The notes beneath the pieces are model-generated. The model made no database searches and was not told the DNA's origin. It was given only the letters and a program-made list of their open reading frames with translations. A stretch of 64,000 bases of DNA from Paludibacteraceae bacterium (lineage in GTDB: Bacteria; Bacteroidota; Bacteroidia; Bacteroidales; Paludibacteraceae): positions 35,830-99,829 of the forward strand of contig JAKSLA010000003.1 of NCBI GenBank assembly GCA_024401455.1, in the 5' to 3' direction. Positions 25,733-61,801 of this stretch are shown here, in pieces (within the stretch, counting starts at the first letter, position 1; each line of letters opens with the position of its first letter). The position numbers and the translations under genes are program-made.

Positions 25733-26686
25733 ATGGACAATCTTAAAAAGAGACCCGTTTTTATCGATTTACGAACCGATTTCGGGTTCAAACGTTGCTT
25801 CGGCGACGAGAAAGTAATGAAAAGGTTCCTCAACATCATTATCGGCAAGGAGTATGGGGAAATTGAAAGCCTCGTGTTTGAAAACGTAGAGAGCACAAGA
25901 GTTCGGGAATGCCAGCGGGGCGTGACATTCGACCTGCGTTGCCGATTAGCCAATGGAGACGAGGTGATTGTGGAAATGCAGAATTACGGGCACCGATTTT
26001 TCCAAACGAGAGCAAATTACTATCTTTACAATCTGATGGACAAACACATCGGCAAAGGCACGGCCTGGAGCGAGCGGGAGACCGACATTCCCCACTTGAT
26101 CGGGGTTTTCATCCTCGGCGCTCCCATGGATGAACTGAAGGAGGTCATAACCCAAACAGCGGAGTGCGACCTCAGCACAAAAGAGATTATTTGGGACAGA
26201 CTTAGGAAATACTACATCTCCCTTCCAAACTTCTCTTTTGACGTCACCAATGCCAAGCTTTCCGATGAAGACATCTGGATACAAACGATTAAAAACATAG
26301 GCAAAATGGAACGGATTGACCCCAAAATATACGACCGCGCGGACGATGAGTTGAAGGCCCTCATCGACAAGGCTCGCATCTCCGCCCTCTCCGACGAAGA
26401 GTATTCCCGCTACGAAGCCGAACTGAAAGTTCTGTCCGATGAAGGCACCGCCGAACGATACGGGTTTGACCGAGGGGTGAAGAAAGGAGAATCTATTGGT
26501 TTGGTGAAGGGCAAAGCCATTGGTCTGGAAGAAGGCAAAGCCATCGGTTTGGAGAAGGGAAGAAACGAGGAACGCCAAGAGATTATCTCAAACCTTCTTG
26601 CATCAGGTATCGCTCCTCAACAAATCGCGGAATTCACGAAAATCCCGTTGGAAGAGGTGTTGAGGGTGAAGAATGCTAATGACTAA
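25733..26686 (+). CDS. Rpn-family PD-(D/E)XK nuclease (putative transposase family), locus 1
   Basis: 317 residues from ATG 25733; upstream in-frame codons from 25664 overlap the promoter. N-terminal PD-(D/E)XK domain: FIDLRTDFGFKRCFGDE near residue 10, then D67 (VTFDLRC) and E81-x-Q83 (VIVEMQN) as the metal site. The C-terminal part starts at an internal Met (nt 26306, MERIDPKIYDRADDE) and carries three 8-residue units GxxIGLxx before a final helical tail. Family knowledge: Rpn proteins act as nucleases and phage-defence toxins whose own C-terminal domain is an antitoxin. The name 'transposase' is historical; no inverted repeats are seen. Confidence 0.9.
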   Translation: MDNLKKRPVFIDLRTDFGFKRCFGDEKVMKRFLNIIIGKEYGEIESLVFENVESTRVRECQRGVTFDLRCRLANGDEVIVEMQNYGHRFFQTRANYYLYNLMDKHIGKGTAWSERETDIPHLIGVFILGAPMDELKEVITQTAECDLSTKEIIWDRLRKYYISLPNFSFDVTNAKLSDEDIWIQTIKNIGKMERIDPKIYDRADDELKALIDKARISALSDEEYSRYEAELKVLSDEGTAERYGFDRGVKKGESIGLVKGKAIGLEEGKAIGLEKGRNEERQEIISNLLASGIAPQQIAEFTKIPLEEVLRVKNAND

Positions 26687-27100
26687 TCCATAGGCAAAAT
26701 GGAACGGATTGACCCCAAAATATACGACCGCGCGGACGATGAGTTGAAGGCCCTCATCGACAAGGCTCGCATCTCCGCCCTCTCCGACGAAGAGTATTCC
26801 CGCTACGAAGCCGAACTGAAAGTTCTGTCCGATGAAGGCACCGCCGAACGATACGGGTTTGACCGAGGGGTGAAGAAAGGAGAATCCATTGGTTTGGTGA
26901 AGGGTGAAGCCATTGGTCTGGAAAAAGGCAAAGCCATTGGTCTGGAAGAAGGCAAAGCCATCGGTCTGGAGAAGGGAAGAAATGAGGAACGTCAAGAGAT
27001 CATCATAAACCTTCTTGCATCAGGTATTGCTCCTCAACAAATCGCGGAATTCACGAAAATTCCGTTGGAAGAGGTGTTGAGGGTGAAGAATAGCCAATAA
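26299..27100 (+). repeat. Tandem duplication of the Rpn 3' end (~390 bp units)
   Basis: The segment from 26299 (ATAGGCAAAATGGAACGG) to 26686 recurs at 26692-27100 with few base changes. The second copy has one extra 24 bp unit (four versus three GxxIGLxx repeats). The duplicated unit begins a few bases before the internal ATG, so the copied piece is a complete translatable C-terminal domain. Confidence 0.9.
26699..27100 (+). CDS. Free-standing Rpn C-terminal cassette, locus 1
   Basis: 133 residues beginning MERIDPKIYDRADDE, equal to the C-terminal part of the preceding gene, with four instead of three GxxIGLxx octapeptides and the same ending (TKIPLEEVLRVKN). It keeps its own ATG and has no nuclease residues. 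It begins 12 nt after the stop of the full gene, so it would be on the same mRNA. It may be a 3'-end duplication remnant, or (inference from RpnL/RpnS) a separately made antitoxin or dimerisation partner. The frame is undamaged. Confidence 0.75.
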   Translation: MERIDPKIYDRADDELKALIDKARISALSDEEYSRYEAELKVLSDEGTAERYGFDRGVKKGESIGLVKGEAIGLEKGKAIGLEEGKAIGLEKGRNEERQEIIINLLASGIAPQQIAEFTKIPLEEVLRVKNSQ

Positions 27101-37654: not shown

Positions 37655-38524
37655 TCAAATCGACTCAATGTCGGAAATGCTAAGTCCGGAGATTTCAGCA
37701 ATCTCATGGATAGGGTATCCCTTCTCCTTCATGATTTTGACGTTCCTTAGTCTTTCCTCCATTCTTCCTTCCTCTCGACCCTCAGCACGACCCTCTTCGT
37801 GTGCGGTGTCAATATTATCGCGGCTGACGAGGTTGTTTTTGATGTGGCGGTAGTAGGAGGCCTTCTCTTCGGCGGAGAGTTTGTCGTAGTCCAATACTTC
37901 CCGGGCTTCTTTCAGGCCTGGGGCGGTGGCGTTGTCCGGAATCTCCGAATTGCTGAGGACATAGATCCATTGGTCGAGCGAGTTGACGGACCATCGGTCG
38001 AAGTCGTTGGCCTTGATGATGTAGTATTCGGGATAGATGTCGCTCACGTTCTCGATGCTGAACTTCTTCTTTTGGAAAGGTGTGGCTTCAAGTATCTCGG
38101 AGTTGTCGTGTAGCCCTCTGAATTCGGTCTTTCCGTGGAAGACGTAGTCTTTGCTGTTTCCGAATTGGAAATAAATGATGTTGATGCTGTAAACTTTTCG
38201 CACCATGTCGTAGCCTTGTCCGCTGCTGATGTACTCGGTGATGATCTTCGAGGTTCCGTAGAGCATCCTTTGGTGGAATGCAGTTTCGCTTTCGGTCTGG
38301 ATTTCGAAGAGGAAGATGTCTCCAGCCTCGTCTTCGCATAGGAGATCGACGCGGTTGCTCTTGTCCTCTTCCTCCTGTTTGTTTCCTTCGCTCTCAAGGA
38401 TGTTCTTGATGGTCATCTTCTTGTTGAGAAGACTTTCAATGAGGCCTTCCAAGACCTTGAAATTGGCCTTGTTGCGCAGCAGTTTTTTGATGGCCCAGTC
38501 AAAACGGATATAATTTTTTGCCAT
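37655..38524 (-). CDS. Rpn-family PD-(D/E)XK nuclease, tandem copy A (locus 2)
   Basis: 289 residues. N-terminal FDWAIKKLLRNKANFKVLEG, then metal-site residues D60 (NRVDLLCED) and E74-x-Q76 (FLFEIQTE) of the PD-(D/E)XK fold. The C-terminal region holds three four-residue repeats of xEGR type (EEGR, AEGR, EEGR, then MEER) and ends in EIAEISGLSISDIESI. Family members are annotated as recombination-promoting nucleases or putative transposases and are reported as phage-defence toxins with a self-encoded antitoxin. Its first ~740 bp look identical to the next copy; the 3' end differs. Confidence 0.9.
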   Translation of the reverse strand: MAKNYIRFDWAIKKLLRNKANFKVLEGLIESLLNKKMTIKNILESEGNKQEEEDKSNRVDLLCEDEAGDIFLFEIQTESETAFHQRMLYGTSKIITEYISSGQGYDMVRKVYSINIIYFQFGNSKDYVFHGKTEFRGLHDNSEILEATPFQKKKFSIENVSDIYPEYYIIKANDFDRWSVNSLDQWIYVLSNSEIPDNATAPGLKEAREVLDYDKLSAEEKASYYRHIKNNLVSRDNIDTAHEEGRAEGREEGRMEERLRNVKIMKEKGYPIHEIAEISGLSISDIESI

Positions 38525-38572: not shown

Positions 38573-39454
38573 TCAAATTGTCTCGATGTCGGAGATGCTA
38601 AGTCCGGAGATTTCAGCAATCTCGTTGATAGGGTATCCCTTCTCCTTCATGATTTTGACGTTCCTTAGTCTTTCCTCCAATCTTCCCTCCTCGCGACCTT
38701 CGGCTCGACCTTCTGCACGACCCTCTTCGTGTGCGGTGTCAATATTATCGCGGCTGACGAGGTTGTTTTTGATGTGGCGGTAGTAGGAGGCCTTCTCTTC
38801 GGCGGAGAGTTTGTCGTAGTCCAATACTTCCCGGGCTTCTTTCAGGCCTGGGGCGGTGGCGTTGTCCGGAATCTCCGAATTGCTGAGGACATAGATCCAT
38901 TGGTCGAGCGAGTTGACGGACCATCGGTCGAAGTCGTTGGCCTTGATGATGTAGTATTCGGGATAGATGTCGCTCACGTTCTCGATGCTGAACTTCTTCT
39001 TTTGGAAAGGTGTGGCTTCAAGTATCTCGGAGTTGTCGTGTAGCCCTCTGAATTCGGTCTTTCCGTGGAAGACGTAGTCTTTGCTGTTTCCGAATTGGAA
39101 ATAAATGATGTTGATGCTGTAAACTTTTCGCACCATGTCGTAGCCTTGTCCGCTGCTGATGTACTCGGTGATGATCTTCGAGGTTCCGTAGAGCATCCTT
39201 TGGTGGAATGCAGTTTCGCTTTCGGTCTGGATTTCGAAGAGGAAGATGTCTCCAGCCTCGTCTTCGCATAGGAGATCGACGCGGTTGCTCTTGTCCTCTT
39301 CCTCCTGTTTGTTTCCTTCGCTCTCAAGGATGTTCTTGATGGTCATCTTCTTGTTGAGAAGACTTTCAATGAGGCCTTCCAAGACCTTGAAATTGGCCTT
39401 GTTGCGCAGCAGTTTTTTGATGGCCCAGTCAAAACGGATATAATTTTTTGCCAT
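38573..39454 (-). CDS. Rpn-family PD-(D/E)XK nuclease, tandem copy B (locus 2)
   Basis: 293 residues from ATG 39454; the frame is open to 39556, but copy A and the family start at MAKNYIRFDW. Same catalytic residues as copy A (D60, E74, Q76). The C-terminal repeat has one more AEGR unit (EEGR, AEGR, AEGR, EEGR, LEER) and ends ...SISDIETI. It lies upstream of copy A on the minus strand with 48 nt between them, so both could be read from one promoter (TACATTTG at 39477-39484, minus strand, without a good -33). Confidence 0.9.
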   Translation of the reverse strand: MAKNYIRFDWAIKKLLRNKANFKVLEGLIESLLNKKMTIKNILESEGNKQEEEDKSNRVDLLCEDEAGDIFLFEIQTESETAFHQRMLYGTSKIITEYISSGQGYDMVRKVYSINIIYFQFGNSKDYVFHGKTEFRGLHDNSEILEATPFQKKKFSIENVSDIYPEYYIIKANDFDRWSVNSLDQWIYVLSNSEIPDNATAPGLKEAREVLDYDKLSAEEKASYYRHIKNNLVSRDNIDTAHEEGRAEGRAEGREEGRLEERLRNVKIMKEKGYPINEIAEISGLSISDIETI

Positions 39455-53505: not shown

Positions 53506-54852
53506 CTATCCCCTCCATTCCCGCAGCGTTGGCAGCATCAGCGGGATGGCGAGCAAGAACGACAGCGCGTCGGCCAAAGCCTGGCACATTTCAACCCCCT
53601 TTAGCCCAAACAAGTAGGGGAGGGTCAGGATGAGCGGGATGAAGAAGAGTCCCTGTCGGGCTGCGGCGAGCGTAATGGCGCGTGCCGGTTGTCGTATGGT
53701 CTGTAGCGTCATGTTGCACGATACCGTCCAAGCACTTAACGAGATAGGTAGCACTTGCCAGCGTAGTGCTTCCGCTCCGATGGCGATCACCTCCGGGTCG
53801 TCGGCCCGAAACCAACTGACGATGTCCGTTGCGAAGATGTAACTCAGGATAGCCATGCAGCACAAGAAGATGGCCTCGCTGCGGACGCAGAACCAGAACC
53901 CTTTCCTGACCCGTGCGAAGAGTTTCGCCCCGTAGTTGAATCCGCAGACGGGTTGGTATCCCTGCCCAAAGCCAACGATGCACGAGTTGATGAAGAGGCA
54001 GATGCGCGTCACGATGGACATGCCCGCGATGGCGGCGTCGCCGTAACGTCCGGCCGCCGTGTTGAGCAGGATGGTGGCGATGCTCGACAGACCCTGACGG
54101 CATAGCGACGGACTGCCCCCGTATGCAATCTCTTTGACCAGTTCCCACGTCGGTTTGAAATTTCGTGCCTCGATGCGTATGTTACCACCCCGCCTTGTCA
54201 TGAAGAGCAGAATGCTGAAACTGCACATCTGGCTGATGACCGTCGATAGGCCGGCCCCCGCCACGCCCATGTCGAATGTGAATATGAGGATCGGGTCCAG
54301 CAGGATGTTTAGCAAGGCGCCCGACGCGATGCCTACCATGGCATAGGCCGCATTGGCTTGGAAGCGCATCTGGTTGTTCATCGTCAGCGAGGCCGCCATG
54401 AACGGTGCACCCCAGAGCACGGTTCCCAAGTAGCGAAGCGAATAGGGGAGAATGGTGGGGGTAGAGCCAAGCCCCAGGCAGATAGGCTCAAGGAACAGTT
54501 CGCCCACCAGCCAAATGAATATACCGAACCCGAACGAGAGGAAGAAGCCCGTGGCGGCCATCCGCCCAGCCGTCTCGTACTCTTGTGCCCCTAATTTGCG
54601 TGCGATGTAGTTGCCCGAACCGTGACCGAAAAAGAAGCCGAACGCCTGCACGATGGACATCACGGAGAACGATACGCCCACCGCCGCCGTCGATTGCGTG
54701 TCTATCTGCCCCACGAAATAGGTGTCCGCCATCACATATAGAGACGTGATCAGCATACTGATGATGGTCGGGATGGCCAGTTGGCATATCAGCTTTGGCA
54801 CCGCCTCCGTCGTCAGTTTCTGGAATTTGTTTTCTTGCAGTTGGTCACCCAT
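53506..54852 (-). CDS. MATE-family multidrug/cation efflux transporter
   Basis: 448 residues from ATG 54852 (in-frame codons up to 54912 lack a good start). About 12 membrane helices, with the two MATE halves recognisable: PTIISMLITSLYVMADTYFVG, GHGSGNYIARKLGAQE near residues 80-95, and the second-half FINSCIVGFGQGYQPVCGFN (about 286-305). It exports drugs or metabolites against Na+ or H+. Higher GC than surrounding genes. No linked regulator. Confidence 0.93.
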   Translation of the reverse strand: MGDQLQENKFQKLTTEAVPKLICQLAIPTIISMLITSLYVMADTYFVGQIDTQSTAAVGVSFSVMSIVQAFGFFFGHGSGNYIARKLGAQEYETAGRMAATGFFLSFGFGIFIWLVGELFLEPICLGLGSTPTILPYSLRYLGTVLWGAPFMAASLTMNNQMRFQANAAYAMVGIASGALLNILLDPILIFTFDMGVAGAGLSTVISQMCSFSILLFMTRRGGNIRIEARNFKPTWELVKEIAYGGSPSLCRQGLSSIATILLNTAAGRYGDAAIAGMSIVTRICLFINSCIVGFGQGYQPVCGFNYGAKLFARVRKGFWFCVRSEAIFLCCMAILSYIFATDIVSWFRADDPEVIAIGAEALRWQVLPISLSAWTVSCNMTLQTIRQPARAITLAAARQGLFFIPLILTLPYLFGLKGVEMCQALADALSFLLAIPLMLPTLREWRG

Positions 54853-55043
54853 GTCGTTAATTACGAATGAAGAATTATAAAATAGAAACGATGTCACGTT
54901 TCCCACAAGCAAAGGTACGAAAAAACGTTGAAGGGTTTATCGATAGAGGTAATAAAGAATTAAGAGTTAAGCCGTCGTCGTAGAGGCGTGGCACTGCCCC
55001 GACTTGGCGCTTAATGAGTTAAGAATTAAATTGATGGAAGACG

Positions 55044-55068
55044 AAAAAAGGGTGACTTCTCGCCACCC
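55044..55068 (-). terminator. Terminator of Rpn locus 3
   Basis: GGGTG / CACCC stem with a 9 nt loop followed, in the minus direction, by TTTTTT. The stop of the last cassette is 8 nt before it. A closely related hairpin ends the fourth locus at 63929-63954. Confidence 0.75.
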
Positions 55069-55075
55069 TTGTCAG

Positions 55076-55432
55076 TTACCTTAGATTTTCGATTTCCTCT
55101 TTGCTTAACCCCGTAAACAAGGTTATCTCTTCAATGGGTTTGCCATATTCTAACATTAAACGTGCCATTTTAATGGATTTGTTTTTTTCGCCTTGTTCAA
55201 TTCCTTGTTTAATTCCTTCTTCAATTTCTTTGGCAAGCCACATCGTTTTTGCATATTCAACCCCTCTGTCAAACCCATGTTGTTCCATGTCGATTTCATC
55301 TTCCAGCGCCTTCATGGCGGCTTCGTATTGGTCGATTTCTTTGTCGGTGAGGGCGGCCACCTTGGCTTTCTCCAGCAGGCGAAGGAGTCCTTCGTCCGCC
55401 CGCTCATATACAGATGGGTCAATCGTTTCCAT
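55076..55432 (-). CDS. Free-standing Rpn C-terminal cassette 2, locus 3
   Basis: 118 residues from ATG 55432 (METIDPSVYERADEG). A GTG at 55447 in frame overlaps the previous stop, but the ATG has TTTTAGGAC just before it. The first ~60 residues match the full gene's C-terminal part. The segment between GFDRG and LEYGK is 36 residues with a four-residue rhythm (EEGIKQGIEQGEKN), longer than in the other two copies. It then ends like them (IEEITLFTGLSKEEIENL). No nuclease residues. Intact frame, same transcript as the full gene. Confidence 0.75.
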   Translation of the reverse strand: METIDPSVYERADEGLLRLLEKAKVAALTDKEIDQYEAAMKALEDEIDMEQHGFDRGVEYAKTMWLAKEIEEGIKQGIEQGEKNKSIKMARLMLEYGKPIEEITLFTGLSKEEIENLR

Positions 55433-55443
55433 TTGTCCTAAAA

Positions 55444-55716
55444 TCACATTAATTTTTCAATTTCCTCTTTGCTAAGCCCAGTAAATAAGGTTATCTCTTC
55501 AATCCCTTTACCATATTCTAACATTCGTCGGACGGTTTGCGTCATCGCTCTCTCAAACCCATGTTGTTCCAAATCGATCTCGTCTTCCAACGCTTTCAAT
55601 GCGGCCTCATATTGGTCGATTTCTTTGTCGGAGAGGGCGGCAACTTTGGCTTTCTCCAGCAGTCGGAGAAGGCCTTCGTCAGCGCGTTCATATACAGAAG
55701 GGTCAATCGTTTCCAT
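55444..55716 (-). CDS. Free-standing Rpn C-terminal cassette 1, locus 3
   Basis: 90 residues starting METIDPSVYERADEG. Same body as cassette 2 and the full gene's tail, but the variable segment between GFERA and LEYGK is short (MTQTVRRM). It begins 4 nt after the stop of the full gene. No Shine-Dalgarno-like sequence, so reinitiation or coupling would be needed. The frame is intact with substitutions mostly conservative (S/T, L/M), suggesting it has been kept by selection; that is inference. Confidence 0.75.
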   Translation of the reverse strand: METIDPSVYERADEGLLRLLEKAKVAALSDKEIDQYEAALKALEDEIDLEQHGFERAMTQTVRRMLEYGKGIEEITLFTGLSKEEIEKLM

Positions 55717-55720
55717 TTAA

Positions 55721-56560
55721 TCACATTAATTTTTCAATCTTATCTTTGCTTAATCCTGTAAACAAGATTATCTCTTCAATCGGTTTCCCATATTCTATCA
55801 TAATGCGGGCGGTTTTAATGGCTTGACTTTCTATTCCTCTCTCAAACCCATGTTGTTCCATGTCGATTTCGTCTTCCAGCGCCTTCATGGCGGCTTCGTA
55901 CTGGTCGATCTCCTGGTCGGTGAGGGCGGCCACCTTGGCTTTCTCCAGCAGGCGAAGGAGTCCTTCGTCCGCCCGCTCATATACAGATGGGTCAATCGTT
56001 TCCATGTGTCCTAAATTTTTGAGTAACTCCATATAGATGTCCTTGATGGTGATGTTTGAAAAGTCAAACTTGAACTGGCTCAAAGATACATAAAATTTTT
56101 GTTCCCGGTCCCAAATCACATCGCCATTCTCAATGTCGCATTCCGCAGTGTGGGTGATGGCTTTGTGGAGTCCGTTTTGCCCTTCGCCAAGGATGAAGAT
56201 GCCGATGATGGGGGAGATGTCCTCTTTCATCTTTCCCCACTTCGTTCCCCGCTTGATTTTCTTCTGCAGCAGTTTGGACATGTAGAAGTTGGCGCGTGTC
56301 TTGAAGAACTTCTGTGAGGAGTTCTGCATCTCCACCAGGAAAGTCTCGCCATTGTCGGTGGTGCAGAGCAGGTCGAATATCACGCCCCGCTGTTCGGGCA
56401 TTGCCCCTAACATCTCCACATTCTCAAATTTCACACTCGCGATTTTGTCCTCTCGTTCCAAAAAGGCGTTGAGGAACGACCTCATTACGATTTCGTCTTG
56501 CAAGCAATGCTTAAAGCCAAAGTCAGACCTTAAGTCGATAAATACTCTTCTCTTTTTCAT
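55721..56560 (-). CDS. Rpn-family PD-(D/E)XK nuclease, locus 3 (full length)
   Basis: 279 residues. N-terminal FIDLRSDFGFKHCLQDE, then metal-site residues D63 (GVIFDLLC) and E77-x-Q79 (FLVEMQNS). An internal ATG at 56005 (METIDPSVYERADEG) is preceded by TTTAGGACAC, a plausible ribosome site, and would give a 94-residue C-terminal product equal in layout to the two downstream cassettes. Family knowledge: in E. coli the C-terminal product (RpnS) is made this way and blocks the nuclease. Only the full gene has catalytic residues. Confidence 0.9.
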   Translation of the reverse strand: MKKRRVFIDLRSDFGFKHCLQDEIVMRSFLNAFLEREDKIASVKFENVEMLGAMPEQRGVIFDLLCTTDNGETFLVEMQNSSQKFFKTRANFYMSKLLQKKIKRGTKWGKMKEDISPIIGIFILGEGQNGLHKAITHTAECDIENGDVIWDREQKFYVSLSQFKFDFSNITIKDIYMELLKNLGHMETIDPSVYERADEGLLRLLEKAKVAALTDQEIDQYEAAMKALEDEIDMEQHGFERGIESQAIKTARIMIEYGKPIEEIILFTGLSKDKIEKLM

Positions 56561-56968: not shown

Positions 56969-59900
56969 ATGAGAAAACTAAAATCATTTTGGGCACTATT
57001 GTGCCTGTTGTTGCTTTCTGCATCTTCTGCCATGGCAGCCATCGGTACGGTGGGATCTTGCCAATGGTCTTATGATTCAGGAACTTTGGTTATTTCGGGT
57101 ACTGGTTCCATGGGAACATCGACTCCAAGTTACCTCTCTTCTTACCGAACGTCGATTACGAAGGTCGAAATTGCAGATGGTGTAACTGACATTTGTGCTA
57201 AGGCCTTCCAAAATTGTACGAATTTGACCTCAATTAAAATCGGTTCTGGTGTTACCAAAATTGGCGATTATGCTTTTGATGGATGTACTAAATTTTATAG
57301 CTATAGTTGGGGCGCTGCACTTAAAACAATCGGTCAGTACGCTTTCCGAAATTGTACAAGTCTAGGTTCTGCCGGTATGAATGCTGTGACGTCAATTGGC
57401 CAATATGCCTTTAGTGGTTGTACAGCTTTGACTAGTATAACAGGTTCTTCTGTGACCAGCATTGGTCAAAACGCATTTGATGGATGTACAAAATTGGCCA
57501 CCGTCACTTTCTCAAGCTTGGTTACAATCGGATCTCAGGCATTTAAGGGGACAACATCATTGAAGTCAATATCTTTGCCTTCTACACTTACCACTATTAA
57601 TAGTTATGCGTTTGAAGGATCTGGTTTGACGTCATTTACAGTCCCTTCTGGTTTGACAACAGTAGGTAGTGCTATTTTGGAACTTTGTCCAATCACAACT
57701 CTTTCTTCTTCATCGTCAAAGTTTACTGTAAATGGTGACTTGCTTATTTACAATGGTACTACCATCGTAGCAACCAAGAAGGCTATTACAACATTGGATA
57801 TTCCTAGAAATGTAACAACTATTCAAGCTTATGTTTTTGATGGATGTACATCATTAAAGACAATTATACATGGTTGGGAGTTGACAACGATTGAAAACTA
57901 TGCTTTCAAAGGCTGTACAGGTTTGAAGCAGATTCACTTGACAAATTCAAAATTGAGTCGTACTCCTACTAGCAGTGACACTAAAGGAGTAGGCAAAGAT
58001 GCTTTTAGCGGTGTGACCGTATCCAACATCTATTTCACTTCTGATGAGGCTGACGTTCGTACTTATTTTAAGAGTACGTTAGGCTTTACAAAAGTTTATG
58101 ATGCGACAGCATCTAATTCTAATCTCATCTGGTATACCGATGGTACTACTTTGTCCATTGAGGTTAAGCAAGATAGATCTTCAAATTATGCAATGACAAA
58201 TAAATCTGCAGCGACAGATTATTCATGGAATGGCTTGAAGTCTCAAATCACAACAGTTAGTTTCCCATGTAACAATGCCACTAAGATGGGTACTGGTTAT
58301 TACGTGACGAGTATTGGTGATTATGCTTTTCAAAATTTCTCAAAACTTACTGCAGTATCGTGGGGTTATTCCACAAAAGGTATTACATCAATAGGAGATT
58401 ATGCGTTTAATGGCTGTACTAGTCTAACCTCATTCCCATCATGCTTTTCAGCAGTGACTTCTATTGGAGTAAAAGCTTTTGGTTCATGTGGTTTAAATGG
58501 TGCACTTTCATTACCTTCCAACTTAAAGACCATTAAAAATGCGGCTTTTGCTGTAAACTCTAATTTAGGTGCTGTGACGATCCCTGCTTCGGTTAATTCG
58601 ATAGGAACAAACCCATTCTATTCTTGTCCGAATGTCTCTTTCACTTCGTCATCTTCAAGTTATGTTGTGTCTAACAAATGTTTGTATAATTCTTCAAAAA
58701 CAACACTTGTTGCTGGTGTGAAGAATGGTGCGATTTATGATGGTGCGACAACTATTGCTGCGGATGCATTTTATGGTTTGGGTTCTACAACGCTTACCAT
58801 CCCTTCTTCTGTGACAACATTTAACGATGATTGCTTCGGAAACAATAGTTTTACCAGCATCATCGACAACAGAACATCTGTTACTTCAGCAAGTTTGACT
58901 TCTGCTAAATTCAATGACAATACAAAGACGAATTGTAAGGTGCAAGTGAAGAATGCAACCGTTAAGACGGCTTATGAGACTGCAGGTTTCACTAAAGCTA
59001 ATGTCATGGTGACTTCATGTGGAGATAACGCAACTTGGTCATTCGACCCTGCGACTGGTACGCTTAATATTAAGGGTTCTGGTGCTATCACAGCAAGTGG
59101 TAGTGGCAAATTCCCTTGGAATGCTGTAATGTCGCAAATTAAAATATTGAATGTTCAATCTGCTATTACGACCATACCAGCCTATGCGTTCTATAACGCA
59201 ACTAATTTGGCTTCTACTAACGTGTCAGTTAATGATCAGGTTACCTCAATTGGCGAGTATGCGTTTTCTAACACAGCTTTGACATCATTTGCTTTCCAAA
59301 ATACGTTGACTTCAATTGGAAATTATGCTTTCGAAAACACTAAGCTTACGAGTGTAACTATCCCTAAATCTGTTACATCTTTGTCAGCATATGCATTTGC
59401 TAATGTTCAAACGTTGGCAAGCGTTTCAGTGGCGGCGGGTAATACTTACTACAAGTCTCAGAATAATGCATTGTTGAGCTATGATGGTACAACTTTGTAT
59501 GTGTTGGCTAAGAATGCAACCGAGATACCTTCTTCTGTTACAACAATTGCGGCAAATGCACTTTGTCATGGTAAGACTACTGTTACAATCCCAGCTTCTG
59601 TAACAACCTATAATAGTAATTGGGCTGTTAATGCTTCTCAGATAACTAAGTTGACGGTTCTATCAACAACTAAGCCATCTTCTTTCGGCAGTTTGAGCAC
59701 TTCTGCTTGTGAGGTTCATATCGGCTCTCCAGTGCAGTCAACTGCTAAGACTATCTACAATAACTGGTCTTCATTCTCTAAGAAAGTGTACGACTATTGC
59801 GGTACTAACCTCACATGGTCTGTCTCTTCTAACAAATTGACGATCACTAAGGTGAACGAGACTGGTTCTACAGGCGCAATGTGGAATTTCACTTCTGGGG

Positions 59901-61801
59901 CTACGGCGACTACGTTGCCTTGGTATTCAAGCAAGGGTACTATCACTTCAGTGGCAATCGGTAGCGGTGTGACTACTGTTGGTGACTATGCATTCCAAAA
60001 TTGTGGTGCTATCACTTCGGTTACTATCCCTAATACCGTCACGATGATTGGTGCTGGTGCCTTCAGTGGTGCTACCAAGTTGGCAAGCGTTACGCTCCCT
60101 TCTGCTTTGACTTCAATCGGCGAGAATGCATTCCAATCTACAGCCATCAAGTCACTCTCTATCCCTGCTACTGTCACTGTTATCGGCGCATTTGGAGCTA
60201 ATAGCATCCAAACAATCAAGGTAGATCCTGCAAATACTAAATTCACTTCTCAAGACAAGTCTGGTAATGAGTTGAACATGTTGTTGACGAAGGATGGTAC
60301 GTCTTTGTTCTTATGTCCTGCAACGACAGAAAACGTTACGTTGCCTTCAACTTTGACTGAAGTTAAGGCTGGTGCCTTCAACGGTGCTGTAGGTAAGTTG
60401 ACTATCCCTTCTACAGTGACTACAATGTCATCTTGGCCAACTTCAGCATATTCTATCCATGCGGCTAACGAGCCAACAACTGCGGCAACAGTTCCTTCTT
60501 CATTGAAGAGCGTTAAGGTTTATGCTTCTTCTGCTGCTGTGAAGACGAAATATACTTCTCTTGGATTCACCAACATTGTAACTGGTACATCTTGTGGCGA
60601 TAAAGCTTCTTATATCTTGGAGAATGGCGTTCTTACCATTATGGGAACAGGTTCTACAAATAGTGCTCCATGGTTGACTAATGATGCAGCTAAGATCAGA
60701 AGAGTCGTTATTGAGTCTGGTATTAATGCTATAGAAGAAGAGTCTTTCAAAGATTGTGCTAACTTGACTTATGTTAGTTTCCCTGAAGGATTTACAACAA
60801 TTGGCGAATCTTCTTTCTCTGGTTGTACAAATTTGAAAACTGTTCAATTGCCATCTACTCTTAATAATGTTCTTGGTGCTTTTGTAGGTTCTTCAGTTGA
60901 GAATGTAAGTGTTGTTCCTGGCGGTGCTTATACGAGCCAAGATAAAAATGGTAATGAGTTGAATGCTTTGATTTGGAAAGGAGAATTAGAGTTTGGTCTC
61001 ACTTCTAACATTCCAAACACTGTCACAAAAATCAAATACAACGCATTCTCTACATCAACGATTAAGGAAGTGTCAATCCCATCTTCTGTAACTGGAATTG
61101 ACGTTAATGCATTCCTTGGAAATACGACTCTCGCTTCAATCTACTGCTCAAGTACAGCAGCTGTAACTAATGCATTTGATCCAGCAATCAAGTCAAAGGC
61201 GAAGGTTTATGTTGCTACAGCGGCTATCAAGACTAATTTCGTTAATGCCGGATTTAAGGAGGCGAATGTTATAGTGGCAGATGGTACGATCGGTGCTGAT
61301 GTATATTACTGCGTTGCTGGTACTAAGTTGATCGTGTTCGGTAGTGGTGCTACTCTTAATTACTCTGGTTTCGCTCAATTCAAATCAGGAACTACAGACA
61401 AGACAGCAAGCATCAAGTCAATTGTTATCGCAGAGGGAGTAACGTCTCTTGGTAATAATGTATTCAAGGGTTGTACAGCTTTGGCAGGTAAGGTAGTTGT
61501 TCCAATGTCAGTTACTTCAATCGGTTCAGGTACATTCGGTGGTGCTACAAAGATCGCAAGTGTCGTTTCTGACAATGTGAAGCCAGCCGCAATGAATCCA
61601 GCAGCATTTACGAATGATGTTTATGCAAACGCTGCACTCATTGTAAGTGATGCGTCTCGCGTGAAATATCTCAATGCTGCAGGTTGGGAGAACTTCGGTG
61701 GTGTTCAAACTAACGAAGAGGTTGCTAACCCTTATGACTTGAACAAGGATGGTTATGTAAATGCATCTGATATGTCAGTTTTGAAAAAGTTTGTTAAATA
61801 A
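56969..61801 (+). CDS. Giant BspA-type leucine-rich repeat surface protein with dockerin-like end
   Basis: 1610 residues. Signal peptide (residues 1-23, ending SSAMA). The body is made of many BspA-type LRR_5 units (TSIGDYAFNGCTSLTSF style). They are grouped in about five blocks, each opened by a beta module such as ATWSFDPATGTLNIKGSG, LTWSVSSNKLTITK or ASYILENGVLTIMGTG. The last ~22 residues, DLNKDGYVNASDMSVLKKF, are an EF-hand/dockerin-like calcium loop. BspA-like proteins mediate adhesion to host matrix or other bacteria. No T9SS-type end is seen here, so surface attachment may depend on the next gene's product (inference). Confidence 0.92.
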   Translation: MRKLKSFWALLCLLLLSASSAMAAIGTVGSCQWSYDSGTLVISGTGSMGTSTPSYLSSYRTSITKVEIADGVTDICAKAFQNCTNLTSIKIGSGVTKIGDYAFDGCTKFYSYSWGAALKTIGQYAFRNCTSLGSAGMNAVTSIGQYAFSGCTALTSITGSSVTSIGQNAFDGCTKLATVTFSSLVTIGSQAFKGTTSLKSISLPSTLTTINSYAFEGSGLTSFTVPSGLTTVGSAILELCPITTLSSSSSKFTVNGDLLIYNGTTIVATKKAITTLDIPRNVTTIQAYVFDGCTSLKTIIHGWELTTIENYAFKGCTGLKQIHLTNSKLSRTPTSSDTKGVGKDAFSGVTVSNIYFTSDEADVRTYFKSTLGFTKVYDATASNSNLIWYTDGTTLSIEVKQDRSSNYAMTNKSAATDYSWNGLKSQITTVSFPCNNATKMGTGYYVTSIGDYAFQNFSKLTAVSWGYSTKGITSIGDYAFNGCTSLTSFPSCFSAVTSIGVKAFGSCGLNGALSLPSNLKTIKNAAFAVNSNLGAVTIPASVNSIGTNPFYSCPNVSFTSSSSSYVVSNKCLYNSSKTTLVAGVKNGAIYDGATTIAADAFYGLGSTTLTIPSSVTTFNDDCFGNNSFTSIIDNRTSVTSASLTSAKFNDNTKTNCKVQVKNATVKTAYETAGFTKANVMVTSCGDNATWSFDPATGTLNIKGSGAITASGSGKFPWNAVMSQIKILNVQSAITTIPAYAFYNATNLASTNVSVNDQVTSIGEYAFSNTALTSFAFQNTLTSIGNYAFENTKLTSVTIPKSVTSLSAYAFANVQTLASVSVAAGNTYYKSQNNALLSYDGTTLYVLAKNATEIPSSVTTIAANALCHGKTTVTIPASVTTYNSNWAVNASQITKLTVLSTTKPSSFGSLSTSACEVHIGSPVQSTAKTIYNNWSSFSKKVYDYCGTNLTWSVSSNKLTITKVNETGSTGAMWNFTSGATATTLPWYSSKGTITSVAIGSGVTTVGDYAFQNCGAITSVTIPNTVTMIGAGAFSGATKLASVTLPSALTSIGENAFQSTAIKSLSIPATVTVIGAFGANSIQTIKVDPANTKFTSQDKSGNELNMLLTKDGTSLFLCPATTENVTLPSTLTEVKAGAFNGAVGKLTIPSTVTTMSSWPTSAYSIHAANEPTTAATVPSSLKSVKVYASSAAVKTKYTSLGFTNIVTGTSCGDKASYILENGVLTIMGTGSTNSAPWLTNDAAKIRRVVIESGINAIEEESFKDCANLTYVSFPEGFTTIGESSFSGCTNLKTVQLPSTLNNVLGAFVGSSVENVSVVPGGAYTSQDKNGNELNALIWKGELEFGLTSNIPNTVTKIKYNAFSTSTIKEVSIPSSVTGIDVNAFLGNTTLASIYCSSTAAVTNAFDPAIKSKAKVYVATAAIKTNFVNAGFKEANVIVADGTIGADVYYCVAGTKLIVFGSGATLNYSGFAQFKSGTTDKTASIKSIVIAEGVTSLGNNVFKGCTALAGKVVVPMSVTSIGSGTFGGATKIASVVSDNVKPAAMNPAAFTNDVYANAALIVSDASRVKYLNAAGWENFGGVQTNEEVANPYDLNKDGYVNASDMSVLKKFVK

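Follow-up and report, generated by a model that had tools for sequence, protein, structure and literature searches.

In Escherichia coli, RpnS is made from inside rpn genes and inhibits RpnL, as described in the accessible sections of Zhong et al. 2023 (PMC10327210). RpnS is reported there to dimerise via a repeat helix and to inhibit RpnL in a helix-specific manner, one added repeat abolishing inhibition. The same sections name separate downstream rpnS genes (rpnE_S, which is ypaA, and rpnC_S), report that RpnE_S is made as a protein and mention the fusion of an N-terminal domain with an rpnS region. Among the titles and abstract beginnings of the open-access literature, with subscription journals outside the search, no later paper on free-standing RpnS was found.

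The rpnE (b2244)-ypaA (b4543) locus was compared in K-12 and 13 of 40 listed strains, from which 13 loci were translated and a 14th, which an insertion sequence interrupts, was excluded. K-12 ypaA exceeds RpnE by one repeat, and in that strain the RpnE product is annotated as inactive and ypaA as a pseudogene. A free copy was present in 11 of the 13 translated loci and its helix length was unlike that of the full gene in all 11, in a small, partly related sample in which several strains share alleles; the duplicated unit also includes the ribosome-binding region. In both loci without a free copy, the nuclease itself has the tail that the free copy has elsewhere. At megablast sensitivity, the K-12 RpnE tail was found in 3099 of 5426 genomes and the free copy's tail in 5359, so at least 2260 E. 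coli genomes have the free copy's tail and lack that of RpnE; the position of the tail in these genomes was seen only for the two that were translated.

Array A and its relation to known rpn loci

The window, that is, the whole stretch of 64,000 nucleotides analysed here, is from a Paludibacteraceae bacterium (assembly GCA_024401455.1, contig JAKSLA010000003.1, positions 35,830 to 99,829). As a first-pass annotation had described, and as was confirmed, it contains a full Rpn-type gene followed by two intact C-terminal-only ORFs, here called array A (Table 1). Both family profiles, PF12784 and TIGR01784, score above cut-off for rpnL of the array. Across 29 aligned sequences, rpnL among them, residues D13, D63, E77, Q79 and R89 do not vary; matched by eye, they correspond to RpnA D11, D63, E82, Q84 and R94, which were mutated by Kingston 2017, with Q84A and R94A still toxic (PMC5350276, accessible sections). 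Residues 240-275 gave a weak match to RpnA_S (7TH0; E=0.00098). The PADLOC model library, run with four proteins, gave no match for full RpnL or the others, so no sign of phage defence came from it.

Table 1. Positions in the window of array A, locus B and the tandem pair of full rpn genes
Feature	Position	Strand	Evidence or remark
Locus B, full rpnL	25733..26686	+	PF12784 E=9.8e-33; internal ATG at 26306, TAGG 26298-26301
Locus B, free-standing rpnS copy, 133 aa	26699..27100	+	helix 8 residues longer; TAGG 26691-26694
Full rpn gene, first of tandem full-gene pair	37655..38524	-	
Full rpn gene, second of tandem pair	38573..39454	-	helix differs by one 4-aa repeat
Array A, terminator-like hairpin and T run directly after copy 2	55048..55070	-	consensus match only
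Array A, free-standing rpnS copy 2, 118 aa	55076..55432	-	intact ORF; helix 24 residues longer
Array A, TAGG kept upstream of copy 2	55437..55440	-	sequence
Array A, free-standing rpnS copy 1, 90 aa	55444..55716	-	intact ORF; helix 4 residues shorter; without TAGG
Array A, rpnL, full Rpn-type PD-(D/E)XK nuclease, 279 aa	55721..56560	-	PF12784 E=6.4e-34; TIGR01784 E=9e-20
Array A, intragenic rpnS candidate, last 94 codons of rpnL, from internal ATG at 56005	55721..56005	-	conserved Met; RpnA_S match
Array A, SD-like TAGG 4 nt upstream of internal ATG of rpnL	56010..56013	-	constrained A-ending codon

Both copies correspond to the full protein from its internal Met (56005) onwards, with heads of about 56 residues that are nearly constant. 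The ATG of copy 1 lies 4 nt past the rpnL stop and that of copy 2 lies 11 nt past the copy 1 stop, and the three genes share one apparent operon. Terminator-like sites, found by consensus matching only, numbered 9 on both strands of the window versus 2.1 expected. A repeat of 187 nt in copy 2 is 82% identical to copy 1 and 95% identical to the full gene; with these repeats, the Ks of about 1 and Ka of 0.03 between full gene and copy 1, and the recurrence of the layout elsewhere, the copies are not due to chance. The proposal that they represent the Rpn C-terminal (RpnS-type) domain was borne out, as they are in frame and share a conserved internal start and heads under purifying selection (see below).

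Like rpnE-ypaA, array A consists of a nuclease-type gene and, directly after it, a free C-terminal copy that starts at the internal Met and differs in helix length; the ypaA copy brings the ribosome-binding region along. Unlike the E. coli locus, which has one free copy, it has two, and its unit of 90-118 aa starts about 46 residues further upstream than the K-12 unit of 61 aa (RpnA_S alignment). It resembles RpnA_L/RpnA_S (7TH0) in its homologous tail (a weak match), four-residue length steps and corresponding active-site residues; in the accessible description RpnA_S is intragenic only, unlike the window copies, with 49 residues in the PDB chain. Tandem direct duplication, a separate downstream rpnS and fusion of an N-terminal domain with an rpnS are shared with the arrays in the accessible sections of Zhong et al. 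2023, whereas those sections mention no locus that, like the one in the window, has a pair of free RpnS copies with unlike helices. Free-standing rpnS is therefore already known from E. coli, and what is new here is the pair of cassettes and the antitoxin-like unit with its start about 46 residues further upstream.

A large repeat-rich protein gene (56969-61801, 1610 aa) is divergent from the array. In a congener (G003:C39, L185:2124-3101, compared with window 53506-56560), the orthologue of a MATE-type gene is also adjoined by an rpn-type gene, of another subfamily and on the other strand than array A; no counterpart of array A was matched in 8 kb of this contig.

Recurrence in the window and in related genomes

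Within the same window, the layout of array A is repeated at locus B (25733-27100). A C-terminal profile scan of the genome contigs gave 53 loci, all in Paludibacteraceae or Bacteroidales. An adjacent downstream free copy was found for 7 of 62 full genes of the subfamily (window arrays A and B, G003:C4, G003:C39, G003:C45, G055:C29 and G090:C27), full genes being counted by hand as one open frame each in 22 related genomes chosen among those with matches; the count omits contig-end cases and G150:C94, in which a truncated copy of another head type follows the full gene, and some of the 62 may sit too near a contig end to show a copy. Free copies also occur in other Rpn subfamilies (L011/L178, L026, L164 and L177), and one C-terminal copy at G003:C4 is without part of the head. 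Abundant short C-terminal ORFs in other Bacteroidales were set aside, being largely genes cut by contig ends (13 of 20 stretches fetched); eight such stretches were analysed, one of them also at a contig end. In viral_contigs the C-terminal profile picked out 304 pattern stretches, none of them a relative, so that there is no evidence for phage-borne RpnS.

Several further ORFs were noted in these genomes. Small ORFs lie beside rpn loci at L082:4748-5038, L091:4427-4717 and L097:760-1050 (all minus strand) and at L066:1860-2099 (plus strand). These frames, of 96 and 79 aa, resemble the head of the RpnS unit (LDEIPQEILDVADEG...), with a different N-terminus and without the tail; the PF12784 match is weak for L082 (E=0.003) and absent for L066. 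Two nearly identical 131-aa C-terminal-only Rpn ORFs lie about 1 kb apart on the minus strand of G000:C2 (L179:867-1262 and 2233-2628), and no nuclease part was matched in that stretch. A locus-B-type C-terminus with more repeats (L221, G000:C24:69700-70541) and a locus-B-type nuclease start (L223, G000:C33) are both cut by contig ends, so that the source genome has at least one more copy of the locus-B type.

Internal start, helix length and tail exchange

All 47 unique full genes with a match extending to the internal start position have Met there (87 unique frames reach the first model positions, including these 47 full genes; non-reaching frames were left out). At -3, the Leu or Ile codon ends in A, giving TAGG, in 39 of 44 genes with either residue at that codon (another three have Met) and, by clusters at 80% identity, in 19 of 22 (p=1e-11), compared with 427 of 2299 Leu/Ile codons (18.6%) elsewhere in the same genes. 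Ordinary starts in the window have TAGG at -14 to -5 in 3 of 31 cases, picked from 56 ORFs. On the strength of the universal Met and the synonymously constrained TAGG, the internal start is well supported at the sequence level and its translation is predicted. This signature is testable, and through it the idea of an intragenic antitoxin may be extended to this Bacteroidota group. Of the matches listed for 295 genomes of the order, those outside the family mostly start no earlier than model position 10, and two extend to position 1; the upstream start therefore seems largely particular to this subfamily.

The TAGG is kept in copy 2, the locus B copy and the L032 copy, although the sequence further upstream is unrelated; in these three, likeness to the upstream coding sequence stops at about the TAGG signal. 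Copy 1, the free copies of L082 and L097, the second of two in L087 and the second in L010 are without TAGG.

The segment between GF(E/D)R and EYGK had been described as changing fully, which is too strong, since its end aligns among the three array A members (SQAIKTARIM / SIKMARLM / TQTVRRM). What differs is the helix before it, by -4 residues in copy 1 and +24 in copy 2 relative to the full protein, both multiples of four. In 16 hand-chosen comparisons of full/free or tandem pairs, three pairs were of equal length and all 13 non-zero differences were multiples of 4, which has a chance of 1.5e-8 if all in-frame changes are equally likely. The variable C-terminal domain of the window subfamily is homologous to RpnS by the 7TH0 match and changes in length by four residues at a time, a step already published for Rpn proteins. 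Full gene and free copy have the same helix in four arrays, L096, L099, L178 and L164 (the last two judged by eye, beyond the 16 comparisons), and in L013 their helices are equal in length with different letters, so helix mismatch is common and not universal.

Over the head, the full gene and copy 1 differ by 20 synonymous and 4 nonsynonymous changes (Ks 1.01, Ka 0.031; p=2e-10 versus neutrality), and the full gene and copy 2 by 4 and 2 (Ks 0.12, Ka 0.015; p=0.02). Judged by these substitutions, the heads are under purifying selection; conversion from the full gene, itself under selection, could account for part of the low Ka/Ks of the copies. Synonymous divergence of heads and tails was compared in 9 arrays, with Fisher tests on rounded counts. 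It was much higher in the tail in array A (full/copy 2; p=0.0005), locus B (p=0.04), G003:C4 (p=0.0009), L065 (p=0.01) and L087 (p=3e-8), and apparently higher in L053, whose tails align over a short, saturated stretch. In L082 it was not much higher, and in G003:C39 and C45 the full gene and free copy are identical or nearly so. Within array A, head and tail are equally old for full/copy 1 (p=0.6) and copy 1/copy 2 (p=0.8).

Among 36 full-gene pairs at least 85% identical before the internal start, 7 have tails less than 45% identical; these pairs overlap and represent about three independent cases. Two pairs, each from one assembly, show no or almost no difference before the helix and divergence after it: synonymous changes number 0/35 in the head versus 12.5/19 in the tail for L083/L088, and 2/32 versus 14.5/20 for L056/L089. 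L070 and L072 have both flanks in common and different tails. Taken together, these alignments show an exchange of tails at the repeat helix, with the rest of the nuclease constant. Such exchange is visible in this group, and paralogues of one assembly that are near-identical up to the helix and different after it constitute natural experiments on the purpose of variable Rpn tails.

Proposed function of the free-standing copies

Array A is probably an Rpn toxin-antitoxin locus in which two RpnS genes are spare and their tails can also be recombined onto the nuclease. The full protein, RpnL, would be the nuclease, and its C-terminal 94 residues would probably also be made alone from the internal start as RpnS, which would dimerise through the repeat helix and block the nuclease. 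Two further RpnS genes would have arisen in the same operon by a partial tandem duplication, covering the stretch from internal start signal to stop codon, and the free copies would be RpnS proteins of other helix length from the same transcript as RpnL. They may also be donors or recipients of tails, recombination within the repeat helix between cassettes and nuclease genes swapping tails on an otherwise constant nuclease. As the helices differ by whole repeats and helix-length specificity has been published, each RpnS should pair with a different RpnL helix. We infer the translation of the copies, inhibition, specificity and any benefit of mismatched copies. The earlier reading of the array as a 'cassette library' is plausible for separate RpnS-type copies of different helix length in one apparent operon; as a new arrangement it is preceded by E. 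coli rpnE/rpnC (PMC10327210, accessible sections).

Among the rpn frames inspected in the source genome, whose assembly is about 90% complete, the tails of copy 1 and copy 2 each match the local nuclease best, themselves apart; next come the other copy or G000:C115 and C49, which have other letters. Any partner of the free copies would therefore have to be an RpnL that is foreign, belongs to the past or is absent from the assembly; with looser specificity here, it could be the local RpnL. It is rather unlikely that the array is a specificity archive for safe switching, in which a downstream RpnS would be a ready antitoxin for a helix or tail not yet on the nuclease, array collapse by repeat-helix recombination would move a cassette tail onto the nuclease, and mismatched cassettes would also protect against kin nucleases with other helices.

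A quite improbable alternative is that the copies are silent donor cassettes, not made as protein and serving as a store from which tails enter the nuclease gene by recombination through the repeat helix. It would account for tails being more diverged than heads in 6 of 7 divergent arrays (A counted as full/copy 2; Fisher p<0.04, on rounded counts, in the five arrays tested, the sixth being L053 with its short saturated tail), for the replaced tail at the locus common to L070 and L072, and for the two translated E. coli strains in which the missing free copy's tail is on the nuclease. However, the copies keep their own ATG, often TAGG and often a short spacing from the upstream stop, with low Ka/Ks, the E. 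coli equivalent RpnE_S is made as a protein (PMC10327210, accessible sections), and a donor role is compatible with an antitoxin role. Very doubtful, too, is the view of the copies as functionless debris of partial tandem duplication, soon lost. An adjacent copy is found in only the 7 of 62 full genes, its presence varies between assemblies at one locus (none in L091, one each in L082 and L097), and some C-terminal copies are broken, with a frameshift in L192 and stops in G116:C24 and G158:C204. Against this stand the copy 1 head, with Ks about 1 and Ka 0.03, and the free copies of L082 and L097, which share a nearly identical junction and are separated by 7 synonymous changes and 1 nonsynonymous change over the head and last 24 codons. 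An assembly artefact in a repeat-rich metagenome-assembled genome was rejected as having next to no probability; many contigs of these genomes do end inside rpn repeats, but the window copies are set apart from the full gene by many synonymous changes and by junctions of their own, L082, L087 and L097, from separate assemblies, have similar junctions, and complete E. coli genomes have the same kind of layout.

Decay of the nuclease with the antitoxin kept was also considered and is suggestive only: by hand classification, an intact C-terminus with a broken nuclease outnumbered the reverse by about 12 to 2, which is not significant (p=0.06). In L195 (G021:C19:165600-169100) and L190 (G049:C66), the nuclease is interrupted or frameshifted and the C-terminal unit is open from the internal Met.
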